64,000 bases of DNA, taken from NCBI RefSeq assembly GCF_011044495.1, contig NZ_CP049143.1, forward strand, positions 6,014,001 to 6,078,000. The letters are read 5' to 3'. A model generated the notes under the pieces. That model did no database searches. It saw nothing but the letters and a program-made list of their open reading frames with translations, and had not been told where the DNA came from. How positions within the stretch are numbered: position 1 is the first letter of the stretch; each line of letters begins with the position of its first letter. The translations under genes were made by a program, and so were the position numbers. Positions 14,084 through 23,219 of the stretch are shown one piece after another. This DNA comes from Roseimicrobium sp. ORNL1 (GTDB lineage: Bacteria > Verrucomicrobiota > Verrucomicrobiia > Verrucomicrobiales > Verrucomicrobiaceae).

Positions 14084-15511
14084 ATGTTCCGCTACCCGTC
14101 GCTTGTTAACGTAGCTATCCTGCTGGGTTCGTTGTTGCTTAGTACCCTGTGCACCTGGTTCCTGGTCCGGTATCAAGGCAGATGGGGCGTCGATGCCCCC
14201 GATCAAAACCGGAAGCTGCATGAGAAGCCCATCTCACGACTCGGTGGTTTGGGGATCTTTGTCACTCTCTCCGCTGGATTTCTCATCATGGAATTGCGAT
14301 TCCCGGATTTTCTCGAGCGCTGGGCTCCGGTCGTCATTTCCAATTGCATCATGTTCGCCATCGGCTTCGCGGACGATCTCCGTCCCTTGGGGGCAAGGTT
14401 AAAGCTGGTCGGCCAGTTGGGTACAGCGACGATTCTCTACTCTCTGGGAGTGTCCATTGACGAACTTTCCAACCCCTTCGGCGAAGGACACTTCCCACTC
14501 GGATGGTGGAGCCTCCCCGTCACGCTGCTGTGGTTCATTGCCGTGCCGAATATTGTAAACCTCATCGACGGCATGGATGGTCTGGCCACGGGGTTTGGCC
14601 TGTTCCTCTGCATCACCCTCGCTTTTGTGGGCCACTATTCCGGCAAGCCGGAAGTGGTCACGGTTTCCATGATCATGGGCGGGGCTCTCGCCGGCTTTCT
14701 GATCTTCAATTTTCCGCCCGCTCGCATCTTCCTGGGAGACGGCGGTGCCTATTTACTGGGGTTTTTCATCGCCTCAGTTACCGTCTTCACCTCCAGCAAG
14801 GGCTCGGTGATTGCCTCTCTCCTGGTGGTGATTGTCGCCTTGGGAGTGCCCATTCTTGACACGCTTTTCGCCATCATTCGCCGGGCTTTGATGGGTGTCC
14901 CACTATTCCGGGCGGATGCGGAGCATATTCACCACCGGCTCATCCTGCTGGGTTTCAGCAAAGCCAGAGCGCTGATAGCCATCTACGCGGTTTGCCTCGT
15001 ACTGGGCGTCGTGGGTATGAGCATCTTCTGGAGCAGGGGGCTTTCCTTGCCCATTGCGGGGGCTGCGCTGGTTCTTTTGGCGCTCGGATCCGCCCGTTAT
15101 CTGGGTTACGTCAAAAGCTGGCGTGATGTCCGTGCGCAACTCAACATGGCGCTCGCACGTCGAAAGGACATGCTCTATGCGCAATCCTATGGACGCGTGC
15201 TGGAATGGGAGGCGGAGCGTTGCAAGGACGCCGAGGAATTCCTTTCTCTGTTCTGCCTGGGGATTGATCGGTTGGAACTCAAGCGAACGAACGAGGAAGG
15301 ATTTGAAGCCATCACCCTTCCGCTCGTCACGGGTCTGATGTGGAAGATCCATGTTCCAAAGACATCCCAAAGCAGGGATCGCTGGATCGCTGTCGCTGAA
15401 AATTTGATCCCCGCGCTCAATCATGCCACGGAGCGGTGGGGAGCCCTGCCGGGGCTCTCCTTTACCAGCCCTCCGACTGTGCCCAGCGCTACGGTGGCAT
15501 CCTCTCGGTAG
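14084..15511 (+). CDS. WecA/TagO-like undecaprenyl-phosphate sugar-1-phosphate transferase with C-terminal extension
   Basis: A 475-aa protein. The first 340 or so residues have the multi-helix MraY/WecA fold. Cytoplasmic-loop motifs are FADDLRPLGARLKL, NLIDGMDGLATGFGLF, FLGDGGAYLLGFF and HIHHRLILLGF, the last being the His motif that separates WecA/TagO from MraY. It should transfer an amino-sugar-1-phosphate (typically GlcNAc-1-P) from UDP-sugar to undecaprenyl phosphate, starting synthesis of the repeat unit. About 130 soluble residues follow the last helix, whereas WecA is usually about 350-370 aa; this extension has no motif I recognise. Placement near the 3' end of the locus is common. 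Confidence 0.88.
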   Translation: MFRYPSLVNVAILLGSLLLSTLCTWFLVRYQGRWGVDAPDQNRKLHEKPISRLGGLGIFVTLSAGFLIMELRFPDFLERWAPVVISNCIMFAIGFADDLRPLGARLKLVGQLGTATILYSLGVSIDELSNPFGEGHFPLGWWSLPVTLLWFIAVPNIVNLIDGMDGLATGFGLFLCITLAFVGHYSGKPEVVTVSMIMGGALAGFLIFNFPPARIFLGDGGAYLLGFFIASVTVFTSSKGSVIASLLVVIVALGVPILDTLFAIIRRALMGVPLFRADAEHIHHRLILLGFSKARALIAIYAVCLVLGVVGMSIFWSRGLSLPIAGAALVLLALGSARYLGYVKSWRDVRAQLNMALARRKDMLYAQSYGRVLEWEAERCKDAEEFLSLFCLGIDRLELKRTNEEGFEAITLPLVTGLMWKIHVPKTSQSRDRWIAVAENLIPALNHATERWGALPGLSFTSPPTVPSATVASSR

Positions 15512-15534
15512 AATCCAGTAGTTGAACATTTACC

Positions 15535-18006
15535 GTGCTACAGAAACAACGAAGACACTCGAGAAGGGTCCGCCGGAAATCGGAACAGGCGGAGGAGGCG
15601 GACGTTCTTTCCTCTGCGCTCCGGGAGGAAGACGCATCCGCGGCTGGCACCGTGCAGCCTTGGTTTTGGCTGGTCCTCTCCGTGCCCGTGGCCGCAATCT
15701 CGCTGTGCGGTTCCCGGGAGCCCTGGGCCATGGGGTTGGTGGCGGTATTGATGTCTCTTTGCTACGTGCTGCGACCTCCCGCACGCCACCTCAGCCGCGT
15801 GCTTCTGGGCTTTCTGCTGGCAGTTCCGGTCCTGTCTCTGGCTGCCTTCCTTCCCATCTCAAAATCGACCCTCCCTTTCTGGCGTACCGCTCTTGAAAAC
15901 GAGCATGGGATTCACCTGGGAAATCTGCTGACTGCCCAACCCTTGATTACCTTTGAGGCTTGGGTGGGCCTGACCATGGGTCTGCTTTGGCTCATCTACT
16001 GCCTCGGTCAAAACTTCGGAAGGCAGGAAAACCGGGTCGCTCTCCAGTTCTTCACGCTCTTCATCGCCCTCCTGGCAATGATCGCCATCGGCCTGCTCTG
16101 GTCGAAGCGGGAGATTCCCTTGTGGCGGTTCGAATGGGCAGTGGGATACTTCGGCCCCTTCCCAAATCGAAATCATTTCGGTGGGTTGCTCGCCATCGGC
16201 GCAGTGATGGGCTTCGCAGCGACCTACGATGCCATCCAGCGGAGAAGGATAGCCGTGGGATGTACCTATGCACTCTGTGTGATTCCCATGTTCGCCGCCA
16301 TGCTGCTGAATACGTCGCGCATGGGCGTCCTCCTCTTCTTCGCAGGACTGAGCTTGTGGATGGGCCTGGCCACTTCAAAAAGATACACCAAGGCCCAGGT
16401 CGCCGTCGCACTCTCCATCCTGTTGCTGTTGGCATCAGGTTTCATCCTGTTTGGCAATACTGTCATCTCCCGAGTGCTGGGAGAAAGCGCGCTGGCGAAG
16501 ATCGTCACCTCGGAGGGGCGCATTGGAATCTATCTGGACACCCTCAGGATGATCTCCCTCTCCCCGTGGCGTGGTGTCGGCCTTGGAAACTTCGAGCCCG
16601 TATTCTCGATGACTCGAGAAACGATGGATACCGAGAGTCGTGCGCTGCATCCCGAGAGTGACTGGCTCTGGCTCACCTCGGAAACCGGTCTGCCATGCAT
16701 CCTGTGCGCCCTGATTGCTGCCATTCTTCTTGCTGTTGCGCGCGGCCCTTGGAGCAAACGTGGGAAAATGACCAGCCGCGGCCGGCGCCTCGCCATCAGT
16801 GCTGCGGTGGCGGCCCTCATCTTCCCGGCACAATCGCTGGTGGATACCCCCCTGCATGGCATCGGCCCCGCGTCCCTCACGGCGCTGCTCATCGGTCTCG
16901 CCGGCATCGGGGAGTCTACCGAAGCCGAATCGCAACGCAGGAGTATCCCAGGACTCTGGCCGGGGCTTGGCCTTGCTGTGGGCGGCATCGGCCTCACCCT
17001 ATGCATCACCAGCCTCACCGGTTCGCCAATCACGCACAGAGCCAGATTTGCCCAACTCTCCCGCGAAGCAGCGCGACTGAAGAACTCAGGAGACCACGCC
17101 GCAGCCCTGCAGACCTGGAACAAGGCAGCGGCCCTCAAGCCGCTGCAGTGGAACATCTACTATGAAAGAGCCGCGCTGAAGCTGGCACAGGGCTACTCCT
17201 CCCAAGAGGCCCTCGCTGATTTTTCCCGTTCCCGATACCTGGAACAGACGTTCGGACGCTTGCGCATGAGCGAGGCAGAACTCTGGTTCCAGTATGATCC
17301 GCCCTACGCCATTCCCGCGCTGCGTGAAGCCATGGAGCGGGATCCCACCCGGGCATTTTCCTTCTACGGTTCTGCGATTCAACAGTTGCCAGCCAATCCC
17401 GAACTCAGGCCGGCGATGCGTTCACTGGCCACTGCGCCCAGTCTTCAGTTCCTCTACCTGTCCGCGTCCACGGGCGACGAATTCACGTCCGCACTGAAGG
17501 AGTTTCTTGCGAGGCACCCAACACTCGAGGGGCTGAAGGGGCCCGACCGCTTGAGGCTTTTCCAACTGTGGTATGAACGCGGCTCCGCTGCGGAGCTCAT
17601 CCAGCAGTTGGATGGACATCCCGATTGGCTGCGTGATGGCTGGCCTGTCGTTGCCGAACACCAGGCCAAACAAGGGAACTTTGAAGAAGCCTACAAACTG
17701 GCTATGGCGCACACGCGAAAGCCATCGCTTCGCCCCCGCACCAACGACGCGTCACAGGACAGTCTCCGCAGGCTCTTCCTCCTCAATCCGCAAGACCCTC
17801 TTGCAGGTCTCGACCTCTATTGGGCCCAGAAAATGGCCGGGAATCGTGGTGGCGCCCTCGCCACCCTGCGTGAGGTCGTCCAATTGAAGAATGCCCCGCC
17901 AGCAGTGCACTGGGAAATGGCAGCCTTTCTGGCGGAGGATGGAGACTACCTCCACGCATGGAGCGCGTTGCAGGAGTATCTGCGCCGGACCGCCTCCGGG
18001 TCCTAG
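15535..18006 (+). CDS. O-antigen ligase-like membrane protein with C-terminal TPR-like region
   Basis: An 823-aa protein with a GTG start 23 bp after the previous stop. Residues about 35-480 contain around twelve hydrophobic segments and a long periplasmic loop, with NTSRMGVLLFF and GVGLGNFEPVF resembling the Wzy_C/WaaL family. From about 500 to the end the sequence is soluble and helical. It has TPR-like units such as GDHAAALQTWNKAAALKP and a later EDGDYLHAWSALQEYL. WaaL-type enzymes move completed glycan from undecaprenyl-PP to an acceptor in the periplasm; the TPR part may bind partners or acceptor proteins. Last gene of the locus, followed by a terminator. Confidence 0.8.
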   Translation: MLQKQRRHSRRVRRKSEQAEEADVLSSALREEDASAAGTVQPWFWLVLSVPVAAISLCGSREPWAMGLVAVLMSLCYVLRPPARHLSRVLLGFLLAVPVLSLAAFLPISKSTLPFWRTALENEHGIHLGNLLTAQPLITFEAWVGLTMGLLWLIYCLGQNFGRQENRVALQFFTLFIALLAMIAIGLLWSKREIPLWRFEWAVGYFGPFPNRNHFGGLLAIGAVMGFAATYDAIQRRRIAVGCTYALCVIPMFAAMLLNTSRMGVLLFFAGLSLWMGLATSKRYTKAQVAVALSILLLLASGFILFGNTVISRVLGESALAKIVTSEGRIGIYLDTLRMISLSPWRGVGLGNFEPVFSMTRETMDTESRALHPESDWLWLTSETGLPCILCALIAAILLAVARGPWSKRGKMTSRGRRLAISAAVAALIFPAQSLVDTPLHGIGPASLTALLIGLAGIGESTEAESQRRSIPGLWPGLGLAVGGIGLTLCITSLTGSPITHRARFAQLSREAARLKNSGDHAAALQTWNKAAALKPLQWNIYYERAALKLAQGYSSQEALADFSRSRYLEQTFGRLRMSEAELWFQYDPPYAIPALREAMERDPTRAFSFYGSAIQQLPANPELRPAMRSLATAPSLQFLYLSASTGDEFTSALKEFLARHPTLEGLKGPDRLRLFQLWYERGSAAELIQQLDGHPDWLRDGWPVVAEHQAKQGNFEEAYKLAMAHTRKPSLRPRTNDASQDSLRRLFLLNPQDPLAGLDLYWAQKMAGNRGGALATLREVVQLKNAPPAVHWEMAAFLAEDGDYLHAWSALQEYLRRTASGS

Positions 18007-18042
18007 ATCAAGCTGTAAGACAACCTCCATTCTGAAGGCCTG

Positions 18043-18073
18043 AAGCCGACTGTGAATCCACAGTCGGCTTTTT
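18043..18073 (+). terminator. Rho-independent terminator of the polysaccharide locus
   Basis: AAGCCGACTGTG (18043-18054) pairs perfectly with CACAGTCGGCTT (18059-18070) across the tetraloop AATC. A short T-run (18069-18073) follows. It is 37 bp past the stop of the O-antigen-ligase-like gene and upstream of the response-regulator promoter. Confidence 0.9.
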
Positions 18074-18184
18074 CGTTCCTGGCAGGAGCCCTCTGCGCAA
18101 CCACTTCACCCCTCCAAAGCCCTGATGCCTGCCGTCTGAACGAGCACATTCGCGGCACTTATTCTCAAAAACGAGAGATATGCT

Positions 18185-18213
18185 TTGACGAAAATCTTTG
18201 CTATTGTTAACAT
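18185..18213 (+). promoter_or_regulatory. Sigma-70-type promoter for the response regulator
   Basis: TTGACG at 18185-18190 and TAACAT at 18208-18213 are separated by exactly 17 bp, close to consensus -35 and -10 boxes. Surrounding DNA is AT-rich compared with the rest of the window. It lies 41 bp upstream of the ATG at 18254 and after the preceding terminator, so the regulator is probably transcribed on its own. Confidence 0.65.
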
Positions 18214-18253: not shown

Positions 18254-19606
18254 ATGGCAAAAGTGGTAATCACCGATGACGAAGCGGCCATTCTTGATCT
18301 GATCACCAAGTTCTGCCGTGGTCAGGGTCATGAGGCCATTCCCTGCCAGACCGGGATCCAGGGGCTGGCAGCCATCCGTGAACACAAGCCGGAGCTCTTG
18401 ATCGTGGATTTGCGCATCGGCGAGACGGACGGCATGGAAATCATCAAGCAATCCCGCCACGAGTCGCCAAGTACCGCCATCATCATGATCACGGGTCATG
18501 GCAGTGTGGAGACCGCGGTGGAGGCCATGCGCTTGGGCGCATTCGACTACCTCACCAAGCCTTTCGAACTCCCGGACCTGAAGCGCACCATGGATCAAGC
18601 GCTGGGTGCAAAGGGCGTCACCGCACCGGTCGCCGCCTCTGCGTTGCCCCAAAGTTCGAAGATCATCGGAGGCAGTGCTGCCATCCAGCGCATCCTGGGC
18701 ATCATCCATCGCGTGGCTGACAATGACAGCCCTGTCCTTCTTGAAGGCGAATTCGGAGTCGGCAAGCAGCTCCTGGCCCGCGCCCTTCACGAAGCGAGCA
18801 GCCGCAATGGTGGACCATTCAAGGCGATTCAATGCAGCGCCCTTCCCACGGATCTGCTGGAGATGGAGCTCTTTGGTCATGGCAGCCCCCAGAACAGCAT
18901 CTTCACCCGCACACGCGGAGGCACCATTCACCTGGGTGAGATCGATCACCTGCCCATGCGCATCCAGGCGCAGTTGAATGCCTATCTCGATCATTCGCAA
19001 CCCGGGATGAACGGCGGAGCAGGCCTTCCCTGTAGACTCGTCACCTCCACCACGGCGCACCTGGAGGATGCGATCCGCGCAGGAAAATTCCGCGAGGATC
19101 TCTACTACAAAATCTCGGTGGTGCCGGTGCTCGTCCCCTCTCTTCGCGACCGCCGCGAGGACATCCCTCTTCTGGTGGAGCACTTCCTGCGTGAACACGC
19201 CCTGCGCGTGGGCGGCTCGATGAAGAAGATCGAGCACTACGCCCAGGAGTTCCTTGAACGCTATCCATGGCCGGGAAACATCAGCGAACTGCGGAACTCC
19301 GTGGAGCGCGCGATCGCCATGGCGGAAGGTTCCACCATCAAACCCGCTGATCTTCCCTCCAAGGTAACGCAGAAGACGGAAGCTACCTCCTCTGAGGCAA
19401 CCGCCGCTCCCGCCGAACCACGCACAAGACTGCCCATAGGCAGTACTCTGGATGATTACGTGCGCTCCCAGGAAAAGCTCTTCATCAACGAGACCCTCAA
19501 GTTCAACAACGGCTCCCGCGAGAAGACAGCAAGCATGCTGGGCATCAGCATCGCCACGCTCTATCGAAAGATGGAACTGAATGTCGAGCGCCGGACGACG
19601 ACCTGA
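18254..19606 (+). CDS. NtrC-type response regulator with degenerate AAA+ domain
   Basis: A 450-aa protein with three domains. The receiver (about 1-115) has the acidic pair DD at 8-9, phospho-acceptor Asp52 in LLIVDLRI, and Lys102 in YLTKPF. The AAA+ domain (about 136-370) keeps a Walker A-like GEFGVGKQ (165-172), the FREDLYYKISVVP region and WPGNISELRNSVERA. The segment from ELFGHG to GGTIHLGEI lacks the GAFTGA loop that contacts sigma-54, and the Walker B aspartate is glycine. The Fis-type helix-turn-helix (about 416-445) has GSREKTASMLGISIATLYRKM. It probably controls transcription without activating sigma-54; no sensor kinase is adjacent. Its targets are unknown, though the polysaccharide locus next door is a candidate. 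Confidence 0.9.
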   Translation: MAKVVITDDEAAILDLITKFCRGQGHEAIPCQTGIQGLAAIREHKPELLIVDLRIGETDGMEIIKQSRHESPSTAIIMITGHGSVETAVEAMRLGAFDYLTKPFELPDLKRTMDQALGAKGVTAPVAASALPQSSKIIGGSAAIQRILGIIHRVADNDSPVLLEGEFGVGKQLLARALHEASSRNGGPFKAIQCSALPTDLLEMELFGHGSPQNSIFTRTRGGTIHLGEIDHLPMRIQAQLNAYLDHSQPGMNGGAGLPCRLVTSTTAHLEDAIRAGKFREDLYYKISVVPVLVPSLRDRREDIPLLVEHFLREHALRVGGSMKKIEHYAQEFLERYPWPGNISELRNSVERAIAMAEGSTIKPADLPSKVTQKTEATSSEATAAPAEPRTRLPIGSTLDDYVRSQEKLFINETLKFNNGSREKTASMLGISIATLYRKMELNVERRTTT

Positions 19607-19724: not shown

Positions 19725-21143
19725 CTAAAGCCCCAGCACTTCCTTCTGCCAGGGCATCAGGGCATCATCACCGTTGTTGCCACCGTTGAGGACCAGTTCC
19801 GTCAGCGTATCCCGTGAACCGAGCAGCGAGGGCTCAATGCCAAGCTTGCCAGCCTTTGCCTCACGCAGGGCACACAACTGCTCCACGCGGGCGCGTTCGT
19901 CATCCGTGCTACGCCGGTGATGGCGCCTCAAACGCTGGGGCCAGGTATCGGGATCACTCTGGCGCACCCGGTGCACGGCTGCCGTGAAGGTTTCCCGCCA
20001 CTTCGGACGCCACCGGGGAGGATGCGTGGTCTTGCCTTCCTCCTGAAACTCCAGGGCCATGTTGATAAGCTGCTGGTTGTTCAGCACCTTGAACGGCGGC
20101 ACATCCTTCTCACTCGCGGTGGTATCGCGCCACCACCACAGTTCCTTCAACATGGCGAGTCCCTTCGGCTTCAGGTTCCCCGAACCATTGATCCGCCACG
20201 CGTCCGTACGGTCCTTTTCTGTGCGCCCGAGCACGTCCTTCCGCAGTGCCTCACAACTCTGCTCGAACCAGGGACGTCTCTTTTCGCCATCCAGCTCGGA
20301 GAGAAGCCGGTCCACAAGGATGCCGAGATACCTCACGTCATCCACCGCATAAGCCTGCATCTTCTCAGGAAGCGGACGCTGGGACCAGTCGGCCTTCTGC
20401 GAGCTCTTGCACAGGGCGATCTCGCAGTAGTGCTGCACCAGTGCAGCGAGACCGAAGGCACGATGTCCTGTAAGGCGCGCAGCGATCTGCGTGTCATGCA
20501 CGCGAGTTGGCGTCCAGGCACACTGACGCTTCAGCAGTGTCAGATCATAGTCCGCACCGTGAAGCCAGAGTTCCGTGCGATCCAGCAGCGTGAACAGCAG
20601 AGATAGATTGCTGCACTTCAGCGGATCGATCAAAAAATACTCCCCGCCGGCGGCCAGCTGCAGGAGACACAACTTTTCCGAATAGTGATGCAACGAGTCC
20701 GCCTCGGTATCCAGAAACGCCCGGGTGTACTCTCCACGCTCCAACTTCGATGACAGTGCATCGACGATCGAAGCCAGGTCCTCGTCCGTATCAATCCACC
20801 GAAAACTGGCTGGCGGGTTGGGGGCGGAATCCATGGAGCTCGGGCTGGTAGCAGTACGATGAGCCGGGGACGAATGCTGCACTACTTTTCCCGAACCTTG
20901 CTTTTTCCCGGATGATTGCGGCGACTGTTGCCGGCCACCGCGTCGCGGACGATCACCATGGGATGCGGGCTTTTTTTCATGCTGAGCTGGGGAGGGCGCC
21001 TTGCCCTCATGAGAGCCAGAGCTGGCCCGTCCTGCCGATTTGGAAGCGGCAGGCTCATCTTTCCCCAGCAGACGCTTCAGCGTTTTGCCAGGGGCGCTTG
21101 CGAGGGCCGCCAGCGACCGCCTCAGCAACGATTGTTTCTTCAT
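19725..21143 (-). CDS. rnd: Ribonuclease D with basic N-terminal extension
   Basis: A 472-aa 3'-5' exoribonuclease of the DEDDy type. Exo I is FLDTEADSLHHY, Exo II is WLHGADYDLTLLKR and Exo III is YAVDDVRYLGIL. An HRDC-like helical domain follows (KGLAMLKELWWWRD onward). RNase D trims tRNA and other structured RNA 3' ends. About 110 residues before Exo I are rich in Lys, Arg, Ser, Gly and Pro, for example DRPRRGGRQQS, and could add non-specific RNA binding; E. coli RNase D is about 375 aa without this. Its ATG shares a base with the rho stop, so the two genes are coupled. Confidence 0.92.
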   Translation of the reverse strand: MKKQSLLRRSLAALASAPGKTLKRLLGKDEPAASKSAGRASSGSHEGKAPSPAQHEKKPASHGDRPRRGGRQQSPQSSGKKQGSGKVVQHSSPAHRTATSPSSMDSAPNPPASFRWIDTDEDLASIVDALSSKLERGEYTRAFLDTEADSLHHYSEKLCLLQLAAGGEYFLIDPLKCSNLSLLFTLLDRTELWLHGADYDLTLLKRQCAWTPTRVHDTQIAARLTGHRAFGLAALVQHYCEIALCKSSQKADWSQRPLPEKMQAYAVDDVRYLGILVDRLLSELDGEKRRPWFEQSCEALRKDVLGRTEKDRTDAWRINGSGNLKPKGLAMLKELWWWRDTTASEKDVPPFKVLNNQQLINMALEFQEEGKTTHPPRWRPKWRETFTAAVHRVRQSDPDTWPQRLRRHHRRSTDDERARVEQLCALREAKAGKLGIEPSLLGSRDTLTELVLNGGNNGDDALMPWQKEVLGL

Positions 21144-22615
21144 CAGCGCAGTCCCGAAAGCAGCAGCTCCGCGTTGCTCTTGCTGCGCTCGATGTTTTTG
21201 ATGAGATGTTCCAGCGCCTCAAATGCCGGCACGCTCGCAAGCTGCTTGCGGATGATAGCGATGCGCTTGAACTCATCCGGGTGGTACAGCAGGTCGTCGC
21301 GGCGCGTACCTGACTTCAGCACGTGGATGGAGGGGAAAATGCGGCGCTCGGAGATCTCGCGATCGAGGCTCACCTCCATGTTGCCGGTGCCTTTGAATTC
21401 CTCGAAAATCACCTCGTCCATGCGGCTCTCGGTTTCCGTCAGAGCTGTGGCCACGATCGTCAGTGAACCGCCCTCGTCCACCTTGCGCGCTGCACCGAAA
21501 AATTTCTTCGGCTTCATGAGCGCCTTGGCGTCGAGACCGCCCGACATCGTACGGCCCTTGCCGCCTAGCATGGCGTTGTAGCCACGAGCCAGGCGGGTGA
21601 TGCTGTCCAGCAGGATCACCACATCACGGCCCATCTCCACGAGCCGCTTCGCACGCTCCAGCACCAGCTCCGCGACCTGAGAATGCCGCTTGGGCGCCTC
21701 GTCAAAGGTGGAGCTGAAGATGTCGGCATCGACGCTCTCTTCAAAGTCCGTCACTTCCTCAGGACGCTCGTCCAGAAGCAGGATGATGAGGGAAATTTCG
21801 CTGTGGTTCGCCTTGATGGAGCGCGCAATGTCCTTGAGGAGCATCGTCTTGCCCGAGCGGGGCGAAGCCACAATCAAAGCACGCTGGCCTTTCCCAAGCG
21901 GGGCTACCAGGTCCACCACGCGGCTGCTCACGCTGGGATTCTTCGCCTGCTCCAGAATGATGCGCTCCGAGGGGAACGTGGCCGTCAATTTATCGAAATC
22001 CGCCGGTGTCTGCCACTCGTCAATGCTGCGCCCCTCAACCTCGGTGATGCGCTCGATCGCCAGGTATTTCTCCTTGCTGGTGGGCACCTTCAAGCTGCCC
22101 TTGAGGAGCTGACCCGGACGGAAGCCGAACTTCCTGATCACGAAGATCGGCACAAAAATGTCCTCCGGCAGAGGCATGAAACTGTGCTTGGGATAGCGCA
22201 GCAGACCATAGCTCTCCTGCTGCATTTCCAGGAAGCCTTCCACATGCACCTTGGTTCCATGTTGAAGCAACCAGGCGGTGAGCTCGGCAATCAACTGGTG
22301 CTTGGTCCGGCTTCCATTCACGCGCCATCCGACCGTGGCTGCAAGAGTCTGCAAGGCCCCGATGCTCATGGCCTGCATTTCATTCACGGATGCCTCTTCT
22401 GGGAAAGGTGCCTCAGCCTTCAATGCTCCCTTTTCAGCGGCCGCCTGGCCATGGGGACCAGCCGGCTTGGCACCATTAGGGGCGGGTTGTTCTGGAGAGG
22501 GGGCGGTCACTTCGGCATTGGGGGCCGTAACGACGGTTTCAGCCGCTGCTTCGGTAGGGGCCGCAGGGGTTGCGGGCACCTGCTCAGCGGAATCCGTGAT
22601 GTCTTCACTTACCAT
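21143..22615 (-). CDS. rho: Transcription termination factor Rho
   Basis: A 490-aa protein. An Ala/Pro/Glu-rich N-terminal segment (about 1-75) precedes the Rho N-terminal helical domain (MSIGALQTLAATVGW). Next is the cold-shock-like primary RNA-binding domain (GFLEMQQESYGLLRYP), then the ATPase. The P-loop is VASPRSGKTMLL, Walker B is VVILLDSITRLARGYN, and the GRTMSGGLDAKALMKPK secondary RNA-binding Q/R-loop region follows. It is the hexameric RNA translocase that ends untranslated transcription. The start overlaps the coaE 3' end by 11 bp, and the stop overlaps the RNase D start by one base. The P-loop has SPRSGKT where many Rho proteins have PPKAGKT, a conservative change. Confidence 0.97.
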   Translation of the reverse strand: MVSEDITDSAEQVPATPAAPTEAAAETVVTAPNAEVTAPSPEQPAPNGAKPAGPHGQAAAEKGALKAEAPFPEEASVNEMQAMSIGALQTLAATVGWRVNGSRTKHQLIAELTAWLLQHGTKVHVEGFLEMQQESYGLLRYPKHSFMPLPEDIFVPIFVIRKFGFRPGQLLKGSLKVPTSKEKYLAIERITEVEGRSIDEWQTPADFDKLTATFPSERIILEQAKNPSVSSRVVDLVAPLGKGQRALIVASPRSGKTMLLKDIARSIKANHSEISLIILLLDERPEEVTDFEESVDADIFSSTFDEAPKRHSQVAELVLERAKRLVEMGRDVVILLDSITRLARGYNAMLGGKGRTMSGGLDAKALMKPKKFFGAARKVDEGGSLTIVATALTETESRMDEVIFEEFKGTGNMEVSLDREISERRIFPSIHVLKSGTRRDDLLYHPDEFKRIAIIRKQLASVPAFEALEHLIKNIERSKSNAELLLSGLR

Positions 22616-23219
22616 TGTCGGTATCGAGTTGTTGCAGAAGTAGCTGGGCTTGAAGCTTTAAAAGTTCGGAGGAACCTTCGTTCCAAATCACTTTATTGGC
22701 TGCTTCCAGTTTTCGTGAAAGCGGCCACTGGGCAGCGCAGATACGCTCGGCAGTCGCCACGTCCAAGCCACGCTGGCCGGTCAGTCGTTCCATCTGTACC
22801 GTGGTGCCAACAGCAACCACGATCACCAGATCAGCCTGATAGTCATAGGCAGATTCGTAGAACAAGGGGACTTCCGCAATCAAAAGTTGAGCCTTTTTGA
22901 CCCCAGCCGCCTCACGCAGCTTTCCCAGCTCCTCACGTACCAGGGGATGAAGGATGCCCTCCAACGTCCGGCGTAGACCTCCACCTTCATCCCGGAAAAC
23001 CACCTCACGCAGCTTGGGCCTGTCAATCCCACCTTTGGCCCCCAGGACCTGGGAACCGAAGGTGGCTGCGATCTTCTCCGCCACGTCAGGCCGGTCCAGG
23101 AGCTCATGGACTGCCCCGTCACTGCTGAAGAGTTCCGCCCCGTCGGCGAGCTCGTGCAACAGCTTGGCAAAGGTGGATTTCCCCGATGCCGCCCCTCCTG
23201 TAACAATCCAAGTTTTCAT
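22605..23219 (-). CDS. coaE: Dephospho-CoA kinase
   Basis: A 204-aa protein with N-terminal P-loop TGGAASGKSTFAKLL, the FSSDGAVHELLDRPDV lid/substrate segment and HPLVREEL with VPLFYESAYDYQAD, all characteristic of CoaE. It catalyses the last step of coenzyme A synthesis, phosphorylating the 3'-OH of dephospho-CoA with ATP. Length matches the family (about 200 aa). It is the first gene of a coaE-rho-rnd unit and overlaps rho. The upstream gap contains a terminator for the preceding operon. Confidence 0.93.
   Translation of the reverse strand: MKTWIVTGGAASGKSTFAKLLHELADGAELFSSDGAVHELLDRPDVAEKIAATFGSQVLGAKGGIDRPKLREVVFRDEGGGLRRTLEGILHPLVREELGKLREAAGVKKAQLLIAEVPLFYESAYDYQADLVIVVAVGTTVQMERLTGQRGLDVATAERICAAQWPLSRKLEAANKVIWNEGSSELLKLQAQLLLQQLDTDNGK

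Follow-up and report, generated by a model that had tools for sequence, protein, structure and literature searches.

A response regulator of NtrC architecture without the sigma-54 contact loop in Verrucomicrobiales, probably independent of sigma-54

Background

Most of what is known about NtrC-type regulators that no longer use sigma-54 comes from single proteins. A gene in the 64,000-nucleotide stretch of the Roseimicrobium sp. ORNL1 genome analysed here (the window) raises the question of what such a protein becomes: it encodes a response regulator built like a sigma-54 activator, but the loop with which activators contact sigma-54 appeared to be missing. The features of the locus are collected in Table 1.

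Table 1. Features of the regulator locus (window coordinates)
Feature	Position	Strand	Basis and remarks
WecA-like glycosyl-phosphate transferase and O-antigen ligase (Wzy_C) genes, end of polysaccharide cluster	14084..18006	+	Pfam
Terminator-like hairpin between polysaccharide genes and regulator	18042..18071	+	13-bp stem, 3' U run; -23 kcal/mol, z -5.4
Candidate auto-operator TTCTCAAAAACGAGAG	18162..18177	+	conserved inverted repeat; family pattern TTCTCA-N4-TGAGAA
Sigma-70-like promoter TTGACG (18185-18190)-N17-TAACAT (18208-18213)	18185..18213	+	promoter scan; TG before -10
Response regulator of NtrC architecture without GAFTGA, 450 aa	18254..19606	+	ORF and Pfam
Receiver domain	18263..18586	+	Pfam PF00072; Asp52 codon 18407-18409; Asp8/9, Thr80, Lys102 kept
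AAA+ (Sigma54_activat) domain, degenerate	18662..19129	+	PF00158, about 119.5-122 bits
Walker A GEFGVGKQ (canonical GESGTGKE)	18746..18769	+	54-row family comparison; Lys171 kept
Loop L1 remnant HGSPQNSIFTRTR, GAFTGA gone	18878..18916	+	alignment; 8 residues shorter than NtrC
Walker B TIHLGEI	18923..18943	+	54 family and 40 sister rows; Asp lost (Gly228), Glu229 kept
AAA+ lid (AAA_lid_14)	19145..19399	+	Pfam; Ser344 in place of sensor II Arg (GNISELR)
Fis-type HTH GSREKTASMLGISIATLYRKM, near-invariant	19463..19576	+	HTH_8; common to GAFTGA-containing sisters
Convergent rnd-like (3'-5' exonuclease and HRDC), rho and coaE genes	19725..23219	-	Pfam

Results and discussion

Domains and catalytic residues of the window protein

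The receiver/AAA+/Fis-HTH architecture typical of sigma-54 enhancer-binding proteins, which the initial annotation had read from the letters alone, was recovered by Pfam (Response_reg at residues 4-111, Sigma54_activat at 137-292, AAA_lid_14 at 298-382 and HTH_8 at 404-441). An AlphaFold2 model with a mean pLDDT of 80 has receiver, AAA+ and HTH folds. Its best Foldseek matches were Brucella NtrX, NtrC1 and LuxO, followed by FleQ and VpsR, and VIA-align gave Z values of 24-27 with NtrC1, FlrC, FleQ, NtrX and VpsR; the nearest solved protein by sequence is Brucella NtrX (E 4e-68). Membership in four described families was rejected, with scores under the curated NCBIfam cut-offs for NtrC (295 of 558.6 bits), NtrX (295 of 600), AtoC (309 of 714) and PrsR (252 of 502.6). 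The 7.96-Mb genome has ten strong Sigma54_activat matches, of which the AAA+ domain of the window protein is the weakest; the other nine score 196-256 bits.

Nothing resembling GAFTGA is left in L1 of the window protein, and the motif is absent from all 54 rows of its orthologue family. ELFG and GG are 13 residues apart, compared with 21 in E. coli NtrC and in all nine sigma-54 activator paralogues of the same genome. The paralogue and sister rows of this comparison are database sequences. Alignment with NtrC, the check that had been suggested, thus confirmed a deletion that removes GAFTGA, but its size is 8 residues and not about 13 as first estimated. The Walker B segment reads TIHLGEID in full, with the change from LDEI to LGEI as first described, and Asp52 and the HTH are intact as claimed. 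So are Thr80 and Lys102, and these two and Asp52 are invariant in a 30-row orthologue alignment.

Four further changes had been overlooked: the switch Asn is Gln193, the sensor II Arg is Ser344, the second Arg finger is Lys286, and Walker A has gone from GESGTGKE to GEFGVGKQ, its Ser becoming Phe167. The ATPase site is therefore incomplete, with Walker B Asp, switch Asn, sensor II Arg and second Arg finger all replaced and with Walker A Lys, Walker B Glu and the first Arg finger (Arg280) retained. In PspF, a switch between the Walker B Glu and the switch Asn (Glu108-Asn64) moves L1, and GAFTGA contacts the closed sigma-54 complex (PMC4132715; review PMC7175178). Without L1, the switch Asn and the sensor II Arg, nucleotide turnover would be uncoupled from sigma-54 remodelling, which makes remodelling by the window protein very unlikely. 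ATP hydrolysis is not strictly excluded, given the three retained residues and the Asp or Glu that outer family members have at Walker B; the AAA+ domain probably binds nucleotide without useful hydrolysis.

The orthologue family and its sisters

One orthologue per genome, with 40-93% identity, was found in four families of the order (taken as Verrucomicrobiales): f1, which is the family of the window, and f3, f4 and f6. In all, 139 of the 289 sampled genomes of the order have a match at E 1e-110, and nearly all of the genomes examined in f1, f3 and f4 have the orthologue. Genomes of f2 keep other activators and do not have the orthologue, apart from one match at the level of a paralogue; that protein, G574 (L212), contains GAFTGA, and it was rejected as an exception. 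A search of the named contig collection returned two true relatives (Phragmitibacter sp. and Verrucomicrobia bacterium), among or close to the whole-genome matches. A still more degenerate copy, L211 (G518:C199), occurs in the window's family, and has lost even the ELFG before L1.

Class- and phylum-wide searches with the family profile gave many relatives, of which 40 of the best (about 390-550 bits) were read as sisters. All 40 of these relatives from outside the order have a full-length GAFTGA-type loop, in a few of them as a variant such as GSFTGA or GAFTDA. The spacing from ELFG to GG is 9-16 residues in the 54 family sequences and 21 in every sister. At Walker B position 228 the family has Ala in 32 sequences, Glu in 16, Asp in 3, Gly in 2 and Thr in 1, while all 40 sisters have Asp. 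The switch position is Gln in 40, His in 9 and something else in 5 (Asn in 39 sisters and His in 1); sensor II is Ser in 37, Gly in 14 and something else in 3 (Arg in 40 of 40 sisters); and the second Arg finger is Lys in 43 and Arg in 11 (Arg in 40 of 40 sisters). The Walker A Ser, conserved in all or nearly all sisters, is Phe in 50 of the 54 family rows. Three residues have stayed in place across the family – Walker A Lys171 (53 of 54 rows, with Arg in the remaining one), Walker B Glu229 (54 of 54) and the first Arg finger (54 of 54). With 54 of 54 orthologues in agreement and 40 of 40 sisters different, chance or assembly error was ruled out as the source of the shortened loop, and the original claim that sigma-54 contact and probably ATP hydrolysis have been lost is well supported.

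The strength of selection was estimated from nine pairs of orthologues. For the whole protein dN/dS was 0.007-0.054, with reading frames open throughout, and for the AAA+ domain it was 0.00-0.04, as low as for the receiver. Purifying selection on the AAA+ domain is strong. Catalytic residues that erode step by step, and a copy as degenerate as L211, could also be the signs of a decaying gene without current function, but the dN/dS values, the open frames and the presence of the gene in nearly all f1, f3 and f4 genomes make this extremely improbable, and a decaying pseudogene was ruled out by dN/dS.

Single origin of the loss

A tree was built without the L1 columns, with 28 representatives of the family, and changes were counted in a way that does not depend on the root. 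The 28 representatives fall together on one side of a single branch (support 100/100), and one change is needed; descent from a GAFTGA-containing activator by loss of the loop, the mark of NtrC-type proteins without GAFTGA, is thus found here at the same support. The clade neighbours GAFTGA-containing sequences from other orders of the class. On this tree the loss of the loop is a single event, in the ancestor of the order and from a GAFTGA-containing activator. Loss is taken as the direction of change because all sisters, and nearly all paralogues, have GAFTGA. Orthologues in which GAFTGA is intact, named by the initial annotation as what would refute its reading, exist only outside the order, so that they date the loss and do not contradict it.

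Outer members of the family retain Asp or Glu at Walker B. The erosion of this residue is later than the loss of L1, and proceeded stepwise from Asp or Glu to Ala and then Gly. The C-terminal stretch LPIGxxLDxF...ERxYIExTL...SREKxAxMLGISxATLYRK is also present in the sisters.

In five of the twelve closest sister loci (L103, L105, L106, L107 and L109), rpoN lies 340-660 bp downstream of the regulator on the same strand. Among the family loci examined, none has rpoN downstream of the regulator. The genome of the window encodes one rpoN and nine other sigma-54 activators, and sigma-54 itself is therefore still used there. Another activator of the same genome, L009 (G000:C1:184352-184852), has GDTAGA replacing GAFTGA and an intact Walker B, and is a second candidate for a lost or altered sigma-54 contact.

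Promoter and candidate operator

The sigma-70-like promoter that had been proposed for the gene was located by the promoter scan, and it is conserved in the window's family: TTGAC stands at -67 to -84 from the start codon in all 22 of the genes examined there. An inverted repeat lies just upstream of it. With the pattern TTCKCR-N4-YGMGAA and at most 2 mismatches, 28 of the 35 family genes and 25 of the 40 sister genes have the repeat in their upstream regions, compared with 9 of 79 control regions drawn from the family's own loci and not from sister genomes; about 3 were expected from shuffles of each set. The Fisher p values for this enrichment (1e-12 for the family, 1e-8 for the sisters) are optimistic, because the sequences are related and the pattern was chosen after the family's upstream regions had been viewed. 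The sister set played no part in the choice of the pattern. Seven of the 35 family members lack a repeat at this threshold, and the best match of several others is away from the promoter.

In 13 of the 22 genes of the window's family, 7-9 bp separate the end of the repeat from TTGAC-N17. Read most simply, the shared HTH would recognise the same site in the family and in the sisters, and the conserved promoter and operator-like repeat give indirect support to a DNA-binding role at sigma-70 promoters.

The position of the repeat bears on what the protein might do there. The regulator may be mainly a repressor, competing with RNA polymerase or with activators at a few sites that include its own promoter and activating nothing; this sub-case of the sigma-70 reading is possible but rather doubtful. 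The repeats of the closest sisters, at about -20 to -40 from the start codon and often paired, could block initiation, and Caulobacter NtrC, without GAFTGA, represses sigma-70 promoters, hvyA and sciP among them, apparently by competing with CtrA (PMC10274813). In the window and its close relatives, however, the repeat precedes the -35 box and has its centre near -50 of the predicted start, where activators are more usual.

A wider set of targets did not emerge from the repeat. At one mismatch the genome has 344 copies, against 343 for a backward-pattern control, and no regulon can therefore be read from it; exact matches in 14 genomes are mostly inside genes or before unrelated genes. Near the polysaccharide genes there was no second repeat beyond chance in the window, and none with one mismatch or fewer in the 40 kb upstream.

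Gene neighbourhood

The gene was first described as sitting beside a polysaccharide locus. It does adjoin one in the window, but the arrangement is not general: the order wecA-wzy-regulator was found in 15 of about 25 f1 genomes with usable flanks, and is missing in the outer families f3 and f4. On the other side, the rnd-rho-coaE genes are downstream of the regulator in 11 genomes, f3 and f6 included, which makes this probably the older (ancestral) address. Because the regulator is apart from polysaccharide genes in many relatives, the neighbourhood is weak evidence for targets, and the neighbouring polysaccharide genes are a plausible guess in that respect. The hairpin that separates them from the regulator was not called by the terminator scan.

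The polysaccharide cluster is about 33 kb long, from L172:5180 to position 18006 of the window, and a carbamoyltransferase gene immediately precedes it. It includes a Wzt-like ABC transporter, many glycosyltransferases, a STELLO-type glycosyltransferase, an AsnB-like amidotransferase and an FkbM methyltransferase. A crude motif scan found no kinase gene adjoining the regulator in the family or sister loci.

Proposed role

It is likely that the window protein is a sigma-54-independent DNA-binding regulator descended from a sigma-54 activator, probably controlled by phosphorylation and autoregulated. L1 with its GAFTGA disappeared on the stem of the family, together with the switch Asn and the sensor II Arg, and the Walker B Asp eroded afterwards; the Fis-type HTH stayed unchanged and the phospho-receiver was retained. 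The AAA+ domain probably still binds nucleotide, and would act as a module for assembly or signal relay. A dimer would most likely bind TTCTCA-N4-TGAGAA repeats, one of them just upstream of the gene's own sigma-70-type promoter, and would alter transcription, under control of the receiver, by contacting the housekeeping polymerase in the ordinary way or by competing with it.

The protein might instead still belong to the sigma-54 pathway, forming mixed hexamers with one of the nine intact activators and tuning or poisoning them. RpoN and these partners are present in the genome, the AAA+ fold, Arg280 and the interface Walker B Glu have been retained, and selection on the AAA+ domain is strong. 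Such partnership is improbable: the paralogues share only about 29-39% identity, an HTH, an operator-like repeat and a sigma-70-type promoter of its own are conserved in the family, and the rpoN linkage of five of twelve sister loci is absent from the family loci.

For the history behind the preferred role, that of a sigma-54-independent regulator, a graded dismantling is offered tentatively. On one branch the ancestral regulator, often placed before rpoN in the sister lineages, would have lost GAFTGA together with the switch Asn and the sensor II Arg, and would have left rpoN while keeping its recognition helix and operator. In one family the operator would have shifted from the initiation region to a position upstream of the sigma-70 -35 box, making the protein a sigma-70 regulator, and the Walker B Asp would have drifted to Glu, Ala and Gly because hydrolysis had stopped mattering.

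This case is one regulator shared by most of an order; the loss is dated to one branch, the closest relatives keep the loop, and both sides of the loss have the same probable operator. It offers a testable natural experiment in the passage from a remodelling ATPase to a plain transcription factor, and in which catalytic residues then drift freely. A Sigma54_activat match in Pfam would by itself miscount the window protein as a sigma-54 activator, and annotation should apply a GAFTGA filter.

Comparison with known systems

TyrR, DhaR, HupR and YplP differ from the window protein in lineage and in targets, and TyrR and DhaR are not response regulators. All four are descendants of sigma-54 activators with a defective GAFTGA, and TyrR, DhaR and HupR are sigma-70 dependent (PMC3162934). 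No description of the present family was found in the open-access literature searched; PMC12316311 keeps only GAFTGA-containing proteins.

Brucella abortus NtrX (5m7n, 5m7o, 5m7p) is the best full-length match both by sequence and by Foldseek, and its aligned L1, TEMDGGERKVG, is likewise without GAFTGA. It retains the Walker B LDEV and the sensor II Arg (GNLRQL), however, and the window protein does not. PrsR, the PEP-CTERM protein of TIGR02915, is like the window protein an NtrC-like response regulator near exopolysaccharide genes (PMC1569441), but it is a predicted sigma-54 activator and has the PrsK kinase gene beside it, neither of which holds for the window protein.

The NtrC proteins of R. 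capsulatus and Caulobacter have a phosphorylatable receiver, an L1 from which GAFTGA has been deleted (8 residues in Caulobacter) and sigma-70 promoters as their sites of action (PMC10274813). That of R. capsulatus requires ATP binding and not hydrolysis; that of Caulobacter both activates and represses sigma-70 promoters, and was reported to need hydrolysis too (PMC10274813). Both are nitrogen regulators with an NtrB kinase and arose by separate deletions, and unlike them the window family has also lost the switch Asn, sensor II Arg and Walker B Asp.

VpsR of Vibrio cholerae (7v2b, 7v2v) shares with the window protein an NtrC architecture without GAFTGA (model match Z 24.1), a likeness for which orthology is not claimed. 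It regulates polysaccharide production (PMC3162934), and acts at sigma-70 promoters with no need for ATP (PMC10274813). Binding of c-di-GMP is a feature of VpsR, whereas the link of the window protein to polysaccharide is one of neighbourhood. By analogy with these systems, the window protein most likely works as VpsR, R. capsulatus NtrC, TyrR and HupR do.
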